From an uncultured Negativibacillus sp. (lineage in GTDB: Bacteria; Bacillota; Clostridia; Oscillospirales; Ruminococcaceae): DNA of 33,079 nt. The stretch spans positions 1 to 33,079 of the forward strand of contig NZ_CALXIN010000020.1 of NCBI RefSeq assembly GCF_944388365.1. Reading direction: 5' to 3'. The position numbers and the translations under genes are program-made. Shown here piece by piece: positions 10,370 through 13,135 of the stretch. The notes under the pieces were generated by a model, which was not told the DNA's origin, searched no databases, and saw only the letters and a list, made by a program, of their open reading frames with translations. Position 1 is the stretch's first letter. Each line of letters starts with the position of its first letter.

Positions 10370-10408
10370 AAAAAGGTCCCGCCGGAACAAGTCCGACGGG
10401 ACCTTTTT
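10370..10408. terminator. Bidirectional intrinsic terminator between convergent genes
   Basis: AAAAAGGTCCCG...CGGA pairs with TCCG...CGGGACCTTTTT around a 5-base loop with one mismatch (C10382/A10396). Runs of five A and five T on the two sides give a U-tail in both directions. It separates the plus-strand train from the convergent yjiL/yjiM-like pair. Confidence 0.93.
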
Positions 10409-10434: not shown

Positions 10435-11196
10435 TTAGGCTTGGCGCTTAACTTTGTTGTAGCCAATAACGGCAGCGCCAATCGCACCTGCATACTGTGA
10501 CAGCGGCGAGGTGTGAACCGGAATCTTCAAATAGCTTTCCAGTGTGGAGCGGAAGATCTCAAACTGAGCAAGTCCGCCGCTGAAGAAAATGTCACCGGTC
10601 AGGTTAAGTTTTTGTGCAAAGAAGGAGGTGCGGCGGCAGATCGAATTGATGATGCCCAGCGCAATATCTCCCTTGTCAGCGCCCTTGGCGAGCAGGCTGA
10701 CGATTTCACTCTCTGCAAAGACGGTGCACATGCTGGTGATGTTGATTGGTTCGTGGCCTTCGACAAAGGAGTCGATGTTTTTGATGTCCTCCTCCAGGAT
10801 GCGCATCATCACTTCGATGAAGCGGCCGGTGCCGGCAGCGCATTTGTCGTTCATGATAAAGTCAACGACGTTCAGTCCGTTGTCCAGCAGGACCGCCTTG
10901 CAGTCCTGACCGCCGATGTCTACAACAGCGCGGATGGTTGGATTCAGAAAAGCAGCGCCGCGGGCATGGCAGGTGATTTCGGTGATCTGTTTGTCTGCTG
11001 TTTCGAGAAGTTCACGGCCGTAACCGGTGGATACGGTGTAGGCAACCTCATCGTTGTACAGCGACTGATAGAGTTTGTGAATGCTGTCTCTGGGATTTGC
11101 CGAGGTCGGCAGGATGCCGGTGCGGACAATCTTTTCTCCGTCGAACAGCACACCTTTGGTGGTGGTGGAACCAGAGTCAATTCCTAATGTGAACAT
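10435..11196 (-). CDS. yjiL: BadF/HgdC-type ATP-dependent activase (YjiL-like)
   Basis: This 253-residue ASKHA-fold ATPase belongs to the activators that fire electrons into dehydratase or double-cubane proteins. FTLGIDSGSTTTKGVLFDG forms the phosphate-1 motif, VVDIGGQDCKAV the phosphate-2 region, and GGLAQFEIFRSTLE the adenosine motif. C119 in NDKCAAGTGRF and C157 in SMCTVFAESE are the two cysteines which, in the dimer, hold one shared [4Fe-4S] cluster. I chose the ATG at 11194-11196 because AAGGAGA lies 6 bases upstream; a GTG at 11202 abuts that site and is unlikely. The partner gene begins its stop 11 bases upstream. Length and partner match E. coli YjiL/YjiM better than the HgdC of glutamate fermentation. 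Confidence 0.92.
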   Translation of the reverse strand: MFTLGIDSGSTTTKGVLFDGEKIVRTGILPTSANPRDSIHKLYQSLYNDEVAYTVSTGYGRELLETADKQITEITCHARGAAFLNPTIRAVVDIGGQDCKAVLLDNGLNVVDFIMNDKCAAGTGRFIEVMMRILEEDIKNIDSFVEGHEPINITSMCTVFAESEIVSLLAKGADKGDIALGIINSICRRTSFFAQKLNLTGDIFFSGGLAQFEIFRSTLESYLKIPVHTSPLSQYAGAIGAAVIGYNKVKRQA

Positions 11197-11207
11197 GGGC
11201 ACTCTCC

Positions 11208-12362
11208 TTACAGCATCTCGATAAATGCAGCCATACGGGTGTTGAGCTGACCGATGTCCGAGGTGGAGTAATCGGTTTCGATTGCCATGTATGGGATGCC
11301 TTTTTTCTCGTTGACAAAGCGTTTGATGCTCAGGGCTTCTACGTTGTAGGTGTGGCAGGCCTGGAGGGTGACTTCAACAACAGCGTCGATGTGGAATTCG
11401 TCGATCAGACGATCCAGCAGCTCGATGCGGTTGCGGTTTGGTGTCATGACCGAGCAGCCAATGCTCAGGTAACGCTCTGCAATCGCCGCGTAAACGTCTG
11501 GATTGCTTTCGTCAACCTCTCTGTCGAAGGATTTTGCACCCGAGCAGTTTTCGAAGCAGACAACATGACCGCCGTTTGCCTCGATCGCCTTGACGCATTT
11601 GTCCGCGCCGCCGCCGAGCGGACAGCCGGTGACCAGAATACGAGGAGCCTTTGGATATTTGTTGGGGTTCTGTTCATATTCTGCCTTGATCTTTTCAACC
11701 AGCGCATGAATTTCCCCTGGCAGAGCTTCTTTGTCGAATTTATACGCGGAGCCGTACAGCACCTTGAACATATCCTGACCGAGCAGCGGAACCGGTTCCA
11801 GCTTCATCAGAGAATAGAATTCTTTCATCGCGCGGCGGACCTTGTTCATGATGCGGATTTGTTTGCGAATGTCATCCTCGGTGATGGTGGTTCCAAAGTG
11901 AGATTCCAGCTTTTCTTTGAGCTTGATGACCTCCTTGGTCCACAGCTCCAGTGCGATCGGACTCTGGGAGTTTGGAAGCTCCATGGTGTAAACAGGCTTA
12001 AACTCGCCCAGATACTCATACATTTTCTTTTTGCCGTCGCAGGTGGTTTCACCGACGATCAGGTCGGAGAAGTAGAAATAAGGGCACTTGTCTGTCTTGG
12101 CAAAACCATAGCTGGATTTGATCAGCGGGCACAGATTGCGAGGCAGGTCCTTTTCTGCATCAGGAATGGTTTCATCCGATGTGGAACACAGACCGACAAC
12201 ACATGCACCCATTGCCAAAGCGATTTCCTGTGGGAAGTAGGTGCAGAAGGTTCCAACAAAAGGAATGTCTTTCTGCTTCAGCTCATAGGCTGCCATGAAA
12301 GATTTTTTGCGCATTTCCCCAAAGTCATTGAAGATTTCGGGCAGCTCTTTTTTAATTTGCAT
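11208..12362 (-). CDS. yjiM: HgdB-superfamily double-cubane-cluster-like protein (YjiM-like)
   Basis: The 384-residue protein belongs to the 2-hydroxyacyl-CoA dehydratase D/HgdB superfamily. It matches from memory the E. coli YjiM pattern: CSTSDETI.DAEKDLPRN, LCPLIKSSYGF, KTDKCPYFYFSDLI and ETTCDGKKKMYEY, ending QACHTYNVE and AIETDYSTSDIGQLNTR. Cysteines at 40, 54, 59, 78, 93 and 108 and later TGCPLGG, ENCSGAK and QACHTY are candidate cluster ligands. In Carboxydothermus this branch forms a homodimer with an [Fe8S9] double cubane that reduces small molecules using ATP; the natural substrate is unknown. The absence of an HgdA-type second subunit, CoA-transferase or acyl-CoA dehydrogenase nearby argues against a classical hydroxyacyl-CoA dehydratase. 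It probably heads the two-gene operon. Confidence 0.88.
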   Translation of the reverse strand: MQIKKELPEIFNDFGEMRKKSFMAAYELKQKDIPFVGTFCTYFPQEIALAMGACVVGLCSTSDETIPDAEKDLPRNLCPLIKSSYGFAKTDKCPYFYFSDLIVGETTCDGKKKMYEYLGEFKPVYTMELPNSQSPIALELWTKEVIKLKEKLESHFGTTITEDDIRKQIRIMNKVRRAMKEFYSLMKLEPVPLLGQDMFKVLYGSAYKFDKEALPGEIHALVEKIKAEYEQNPNKYPKAPRILVTGCPLGGGADKCVKAIEANGGHVVCFENCSGAKSFDREVDESNPDVYAAIAERYLSIGCSVMTPNRNRIELLDRLIDEFHIDAVVEVTLQACHTYNVEALSIKRFVNEKKGIPYMAIETDYSTSDIGQLNTRMAAFIEML

Positions 12363-12453: not shown

Positions 12454-12482
12454 AGAGTATGAAAAAAGGCGAATAAAGTCAA
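12454..12482 (-). promoter_or_regulatory. Candidate promoter of the yjiM-yjiL pair
   Basis: On the minus strand, TTGACT (12477-12482) lies 17 bases before TACTCT (12454-12459). The -35 is good and the -10 is weak (three of six matches). It sits about 90 bases upstream of the start codon. Confidence 0.45.
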
Positions 12483-12605: not shown

Positions 12606-12688
12606 AACCCAAGATGCTTGTCAGAAGAAAAACAATGGTGTATCATAGGGATGGGAAACAACATTTGACTGGGGAAAGGAAGATGGCG

Positions 12689-13135
12689 ATGCTCAAAAAT
12701 TATCTGGATCGACAGGCAGTAAAAATGTGTTCGGCAAAAGACTGGCAGGAAGCGATTGAAAAAGCGGCGCAGCCACTGATAGAAGAAAAGAAGATTGAGC
12801 CGGCCTATCTGCAGCGGACATTGGAAAATGTCCGACAGCTGGGCGCGTATATCGTGCTGGCGAAGGGAATTGCGGTGGCACATGCACGTCCAGGGGAGGA
12901 CGTTTCTGCAAGCTGTGTCAGCATGATGGGACTGGAACAGCCGATTCCTTTTGGCCATAAGCAGTATGACCCTGTGCACATTGTTCTGATGATGGCAGCA
13001 CCGGACGATACAGCACACATTCAGCTGATGATGGAGATCGCACAAAAGCTTAGTCAAACCGAAGTGATGCAGGCGCTGGAAAAAGCAGAAAATGAGGATC
13101 AGCTCTTTGCAGCGATGACATGGGGCGAAGAATAA
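12689..13135 (+). CDS. Orphan PTS EIIA component (mannitol/fructose/ascorbate type)
   Basis: This 148-residue protein has the PTS EIIA type-2 fold. The phosphorylated histidine is expected at H65 in GIAVAHARPGEDV, followed by VSMMGLEQPIPFG and PVHIVLMMAAPDDTAHIQLMMEIA. It most resembles the ascorbate (UlaC) branch, which would take phosphate from HPr and pass it to an EIIB. I chose the ATG at 12689 because GAAAGGA lies 8 bases upstream; the ATG at 12683 is only two bases from that site. No EIIB, EIIC or sugar enzyme lies alongside, so it could serve a transporter elsewhere or be a regulatory EIIA. A terminator follows immediately. Confidence 0.85.
   Translation: MLKNYLDRQAVKMCSAKDWQEAIEKAAQPLIEEKKIEPAYLQRTLENVRQLGAYIVLAKGIAVAHARPGEDVSASCVSMMGLEQPIPFGHKQYDPVHIVLMMAAPDDTAHIQLMMEIAQKLSQTEVMQALEKAENEDQLFAAMTWGEE

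Follow-up and report, generated by a model that had tools for sequence, protein, structure and literature searches.

We report that a two-gene operon of an uncultured Negativibacillus sp. is a two-component YjiM/YjiL-type (DCCP/DCCP-R) system of the double-cubane-cluster protein family, and that the evidence as a whole is best explained by an ATP-driven double-cubane reductase that probably acts in selenium acquisition. The initial annotation of this DNA had left the role of the pair open, with nothing linked to it; that view is not supported, in that genes of selenium utilisation recur beside homologues and members of the close family occur in selD-bearing genomes only. The window (the whole stretch of 33,079 nucleotides that was analysed) adds one more member to a family whose structure and ATP-driven chemistry are already published.

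DCCPs have been called archetypal for the BCR/HAD metalloenzymes, and their biological function was stated to be unknown in 2025 (PMC11971306). Members of the family, including E. coli YjiM/YjiL, are widespread in gut bacteria and are often annotated as dehydratases. The selenium link of DCCP is not wholly new, as a provisional link dates from 2015 and 2023. HGD subunits and activases of Slackia appear near YedF, SelD and LysR_Se in a STRING table (PMC5322559), and DCCP has been described as “provisionally linked to selenium metabolism” (PMC10418091). The literature searched yielded no experiment on a selenium phenotype or selenium substrate of DCCP, and DCCP is not mentioned in the M. maripaludis selenium proteomics paper, Haft and Self 2008, ISME J 2016 or the C. 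difficile SDMH paper. New here are a quantified tie to selD that now takes in the YjiM clade, an internal control and a set of exceptions, together with the observation of a shared activase and the reading of yjiM-yjiL-ytiA. The tie to selD and the operons with selenium genes suggest a missing reductive step in the selenium acquisition of anaerobes, and they make an orphan enzyme directly testable in E. coli K-12.

Identification of the gene pair

The two genes described in the initial annotation, coding for 384 and 253 residues, are both present as open reading frames on the minus strand (Table 1). The activase gene begins 11 bp after the reductase gene if its ATG start is used and 5 bp after it from an alternative GTG start at position 11202, which would give 255 residues and lies two codons before the ATG; the ATG is better spaced after the AAGGAG ribosome site. 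Because the gap is short and the strand is common, we take reductase and activase to form one operon.

Table 1. Coordinates of the operon and of adjoining features in the window
Feature	Position	Strand	Basis
DCCP/YjiM-type reductase, 384 aa	11208-12362	-	NF040772 score, predicted fold, cysteine conservation
DCCP reductase/YjiL-type activase (ASKHA ATPase), 253 aa from ATG	10435-11196	-	PF01869, TIGR00241, relatives 1HUX and 7YYL-E, Cys numbering
Same activase from the alternative GTG start	10435-11202	-	
Bidirectional terminator-like hairpin, U-tracts on both strands, common to the convergent plus-strand gene	10370-10408	both	fold
Putative promoter: TTGACT (12482-12477), 17 nt, weak -10 TACTCT (12459-12454)	12454-12482	-	alignment with Negativibacillus massiliensis
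PTS-IIA gene	12614-13135		
Terminator-like match inside the PTS-IIA coding sequence	12777-12763		
Free-standing FakA-like middle domain, 83 aa	10082-10333	+	PF21645

The reductase matches the NCBIfam model NF040772 (double-cubane-cluster-containing anaerobic reductase) along the complete model (1-372/372) with 534.5 bits, the cut-off being 350, and the Pfam HGD-D family PF06050 with E 2e-122. Its AlphaFold2 model (pLDDT 92) superimposes on Carboxydothermus DCCP 6ENO with Z 49.8 and an rmsd of 1.9 over 378 residues, and DCCP (6ENO/7YYL) is the best PDB match by sequence and by fold alike (Z 49.8-50.0, 35% identity), in agreement with the double-cubane reductase family named initially. The protein has 12 cysteines in total. 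Eight of them (40, 59, 78, 93, 108, 273, 303 and 336) are kept in 96% or more of the 140 rows of an alignment and correspond there to C76, 95, 114, 129, 144, 309, 341 and 374 of Carboxydothermus DCCP, in agreement with the earlier proposal of a set of candidate cluster cysteines. Six of the eight, C40, C78, C108, C273, C303 and C336, are common to BzdN, in which six cysteines ligate the [8Fe-9S] cluster (PMC11971306); these six are candidate [8Fe-9S] ligands, to which the DCCP-specific C59 and C93, found in Carboxydothermus DCCP and absent in BzdN, may be added. By homology, the conserved cysteines of the window protein would bind an 8Fe cluster.

The activase belongs to the BcrAD_BadFG family (PF01869, E 4.5e-54) and scores 259 bits against TIGR00241, for which the cut-off is 125. 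Its best PDB match is 1HUX, and the activator of hydroxyisocaproyl-CoA dehydratase (4EHT) and DCCP-R (7YYL-E) are also among the top matches. The activase pair Cys119 and Cys157 had been placed correctly, in the numbering from the ATG start, and the two are the putative bridging-cluster cysteines.

In a tree of 140 proteins, made by a quick maximum-likelihood method with SH-aLRT support only, a ~424-aa clade that includes Carboxydothermus DCCP (support 89) is separate from a ~384-aa clade to which the window protein and E. coli YjiM belong. The YjiM/YjiL assignment stands, with 57% identity to E. coli YjiM and a place in the same clade; the Carboxydothermus DCCP to which the pair had also been related is of the same family but falls in the other clade. 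The window protein and the Enterobacteriaceae clade belong to one 94-row set (support 99), within which the window protein groups with that of Negativibacillus massiliensis (99) inside an Oscillospiraceae-rich set, although we are unsure of the fine placement of this subclade. BzdN lies outside the DCCPs on a very long branch. It was the sole reference row from the dehydratase side, the tree being without HgdA, HgdB and BcrB/C rows, so that we reject the HgdA, HgdB and BcrB families on the strength of model scores and the lack of a partner.

On these grounds we regard it as very improbable that the protein is a component of a 2-hydroxyacyl-CoA dehydratase or a benzoyl-CoA reductase serving fermentation or aromatic degradation. 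Such a role would agree with the common superfamily fold (Z 40-42 to BzdN and to HadC, the beta subunit of 2-hydroxyisocaproyl-CoA dehydratase) and with the frequent automatic annotation of DCCPs as dehydratases. The HadC model NF052456, however, gives 91.8 bits at a cut-off of 700, with no second HGD-D subunit in the genome to support an HgdAB/HadBC identity, and a class I Bzd/Bcr identity is rejected by TIGR03190 (BzdN; 60 vs 453.8) and TIGR02263 (33 vs 421) and by the genome’s lack of a BzdO/BcrB partner; BzdN also has no counterpart of C59 and C93. The initial annotation had itself judged a fermentation dehydratase improbable and had named placement with HgdB or BcrB/C, or an HgdA-like partner, as evidence to the contrary. 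Within the range of the tree, where BzdN represented that side, and of the genome, which is 95% complete in assembly, neither was found. In line with the initial annotation, no CoA-transferase, HgdA or acyl-CoA dehydrogenase was seen among those genes of the window that were inspected (thyX, tmk, yceG, U32/trhP, mraZ, PBP, Mur ligase, ftsW/rodA-type, EPSP-synthase-type and ftsZ).

The operon is flanked by a trhP/FakA-like open reading frame on one side and by a PTS-IIA/mraZ/dcw cluster on the other. The order mraZ, PTS-IIA, DCCP, activase recurs in N. massiliensis (DCCP 87%, activase 91%) and in an Oscillospiraceae genome (L141). The pair had been said to lie alone between terminators, which holds for the downstream side, where the hairpin folds with -29.9 kcal/mol (z -6.7) on the minus strand and -25.4 kcal/mol (z -6.1) on the plus strand. 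The upstream side is instead a divergent promoter region of 250 bp facing the PTS-IIA gene, and the sole terminator-like match there falls within that gene’s coding sequence. An Rfam scan of the locus gave a sub-threshold ncr1175 match on the terminator hairpin and otherwise nothing. The putative promoter box is kept in N. massiliensis, two upstream regions having been aligned; as a promoter and terminator consensus scan of the locus came out scarcely above shuffles, it is this two-species alignment that supports the box. Between trhP and the terminator lies the free-standing FakA-like middle domain, which is usually part of a protein of ~550 residues.

Association of DCCP genes with selenium genes

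The co-occurrence survey covered ~620 genomes overall (293 of the same class, 276 gammaproteobacterial and 50 named carriers). Among the 293 genomes of the class, 35 had NF040772 over the cut-off and 71 had SelD; selD was present in 35/35 genomes with NF040772 and in 36/258 without it (Fisher p 9e-26). All 50 of the further named DCCP carriers, Enterobacteriaceae included, also have selD (50/50). Co-occurrence with selD is not proof of function, and both could follow an anaerobic life style. A shared life style is argued against by the within-family strata: in the seven families that hold both SelD-positive and SelD-negative genomes, the product of exact probabilities is ~7e-5, a figure limited to genomes with a listed family assignment. 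About half of the SelD genomes in the class (36/71) are without DCCP, from which we conclude that DCCP is not essential to selenium use.

DCCP was found in three of the 276 gammaproteobacterial genomes, one of them a SelD-positive Citrobacter. The other two proteins are divergent, score 356 and 362 bits, just above the cut-off of 350, and occur with an activase in genomes without SelD; the selD tie is therefore limited to the two main DCCP clades, and the divergent branch possibly has a different function. One of these divergent proteins (L191 and L192, in G415 and G450), namely L192, follows a gene that by eye resembles a NapH-like membrane ferredoxin.

The neighbour comparison took in 130 DCCP loci, with partner names confirmed by profile search. 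Of these, 80 were named loci from a second genome collection, and the other 50 came from E. coli and from genomes of the class. Partners in the same operon were the activase (84 loci), a PF11823 Se/S carrier (40), YedF (13), a Sec-lyase-like protein (11), SelD (9), YqeB (8), YqeC (7), MocA (6), SelA (1) and SelB (1). A selenium marker was present in 29/130 loci (p 5e-7 against a rough chance figure that ignores relatedness and is indicative only). Clostridium intestinale has the order Mo hydroxylase genes, DCCP, activase, selD, yedF, Se/S carrier, yqeC, mocA, yqeB; Anaerococcus octavius has activase, DCCP, selD, yedF, Se/S carrier, Sec lyase; and Neofamilia, Holdemanella and Eubacterium aggregans are further clear examples of operons with selenium genes. 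The E. coli order is yjiM-yjiL-ytiA, where ytiA is by profile a PF11823 Se/S carrier. Some DCCPs lie within UROD/RACo/B12-protein clusters of the kind tied to methyl-selenium use (PMC10418091). The window protein is 64-68% identical to Clostridium and Eubacterium proteins adjacent to selenium genes (L065, L071, L072, L080, L081). In its own 15-row Oscillospiraceae-type subclade activase linkage was seen and selenium-gene linkage was not.

Two further arrangements were observed among these loci. In L093 (9364-10152), L096 and L097 a conserved protein of ~260 residues with no Pfam or NCBIfam match is encoded between activase and DCCP, and we see in it a candidate for a new subunit, or for a substrate gene, of the ~424-aa clade. 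In L060, L099 and L156 the operon that holds the DCCP also has ABC-transporter genes and the gene of a DUF3798 protein, possibly an importer of the substrate.

A different account of these data has the system reduce sulfur compounds generally at the expense of ATP, or detoxify small molecules like azide, hydrazine, acetylene or nitro compounds, its co-occurrence with selenium genes in anaerobes being incidental. It draws on the in vitro substrates of Carboxydothermus DCCP, which are acetylene, hydrazine and azide (PMC11971306), on the naming of the carrier family as Se/S, and on the DCCPs found with ABC transporters or UROD/RACo/B12 clusters, where action on methyl-sulfur compounds is possible. 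We nevertheless consider it unlikely: it predicts neither the restriction to selD genomes (35/35 and 50/50) nor operons with selD, selA/selB, yqeB, yqeC and yedF, and the genomes with only other HGD-D subfamilies, the internal control, are SelD-positive in just 17/60.

The selenium role might also be confined to the maturation of selenium-dependent molybdenum hydroxylases (labile Se cofactor, Xdh-like enzymes), given that the nearest Clostridium homologues (L065, L071, L080, L152) lie between selD/yedF/yqeB/yqeC and mocA/Mo-hydroxylase genes and that the window’s genome has two YqeB. We find this quite improbable, since YqeB does not track DCCP among the selD-positive genomes (21/35 with DCCP vs 19/36 without, p 0.63) and many DCCPs stand instead with selA/selB or methyltransferase clusters.

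Selenium genes and a second DCCP in the genome

The genome (2.3 Mb, 95% complete) is that of a selenium user whose selenium genes are present but not beside the DCCP operon. Its selD, with an in-frame TGA, lies beside a LysR gene on contig C4; yedE, a Sec-lyase-like protein and GrdX occur together in one region; and glycine-reductase genes, yedF and Se/S carriers (the latter on contigs C6 and C4) are also found, as is YqeB, twice. The second YqeB (L188; C58, 1951-2712) has one in-frame TGA, aligned by eye to a non-cysteine position of another YqeB, which may stem from an error in sequencing, from decay or from an unusual Sec site. Within the window no selenium gene lies near the DCCP pair, the linkage being seen in relatives only, and no Se/S carrier gene follows the activase before the terminator, as is true of the operons of many type-A relatives.

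A whole-genome search found two HGD-D proteins, both of the DCCP type. The second, on contig C36, is 66% identical to the window DCCP and ends an Opp-type ABC-transporter operon consisting of a binding protein, two permeases and two ATPases (L007, 9592-16483), with no adjacent activase; N. massiliensis has the same order (L134). Apart from the window activase, no stand-alone activase was found in the assembly, which is incomplete, and because the C36 DCCP has none of its own, the window activase probably serves both. One other protein of the genome matches BcrAD clearly, a long fused BadF-type activase on C83 with at least 971 residues (L008, 3520-7903), which runs off the contig and adjoins a DUF2229 protein. 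Elsewhere, in L057, L113 and L114, DCCPs of both length classes stand in tandem or share an operon that has a single activase, an arrangement that also suggests sharing.

Proposed function

Cluster type and ATP-driven electron transfer in the window pair are proposed by analogy with the characterised homologue. An activase homodimer would hold one [4Fe-4S] cluster between its two copies of Cys119/Cys157 and, on hydrolysis of ATP, would drive low-potential electrons into the [8Fe-9S] cluster of a DCCP homodimer, at which a small substrate would be reduced. Most likely a selenium compound would thereby be released or reduced to (methyl)selenol or selenide usable by SelD, and the same activase would probably also drive the C36 DCCP. 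Genomic context makes a selenium role of the window system quite likely in our view. The known in vitro substrates are not selenium compounds, which is a point against such a role, and because some type-A DCCPs lie beside transporters or methyltransferase clusters, handling of sulfur is equally conceivable for them. An anaerobic function fits the observation that expression of yjiM/yjiL drops together with the formate and anaerobic regulon in an E. coli ygfI mutant (PMC9068703).

As to the exact reaction, our preferred guess, made from context, is reductive cleavage of C-Se or Se-S bonds, and a hard reduction that needs ATP fits C-Se bond cleavage better than the reduction of a perselenide. 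We put forward, as a speculation with rather low confidence, that YjiM-type DCCPs are ATP-driven reductases of C-Se (and C-S) bonds, which would supply SelD with (methyl)selenol or selenide set free from organic selenium compounds. Methyltransferase clusters outside selenium use carry the ATP-driven, C-S cleaving MarHDK, and the selenium ones often carry DCCP (PMC10418091), a parallel that would fit C-Se cleavage. On the same tentative footing, such a reaction could make YjiM-type DCCPs the counterpart, independent of nitrogenase, of the 8-Fe methylthio-alkane reductases. The two DCCPs driven by the window activase would, on this reading, differ in their routes of import, one of them being tied to the Opp-type transporter.

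Comparison with known systems

Among the nearest known systems is E. coli YjiM/YjiL (b4335/b4334) with YtiA (b4715), which shares with the window the reductase-activase order on one strand, the protein length, the tree clade and the NCBIfam equivalog (531 bits for YjiM); the E. coli operon has ytiA as a third gene, whereas the nearest carriers in the window’s genome are on other contigs. The DCCP/DCCP-R system of Carboxydothermus hydrogenoformans (6ENO, 7YYL, 7YZM) agrees in fold (Z ~50), in the eight aligned cysteines and in having a cognate activase. Its reductase has an N-terminal extension and belongs to the clade in which a Se/S carrier often follows, and the window protein is ~40 residues shorter. 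BzdN/MbdN of class I benzoyl-CoA reductase has the fold and six of the eight conserved cysteines in common with the window DCCP, and its [8Fe-9S] cluster is known, but it forms a heterodimer with BzdO and acts on a CoA ester. The dehydratases HgdAB/HadBC and their activators HgdC/HadI share the HGD-D superfamily with the window system, the activase structure 1HUX being the best PDB match of the window activase, and differ in having a second subunit along with CoA-transferase and acyl-CoA dehydrogenase. Finally, the type I mlp gene clusters of the selenium clade (PMC10418091) include some type-A DCCPs among their UROD, RACo and B12-protein genes, in contrast to the window locus, which carries its reductase and activase apart from any methyltransferase or corrinoid gene.
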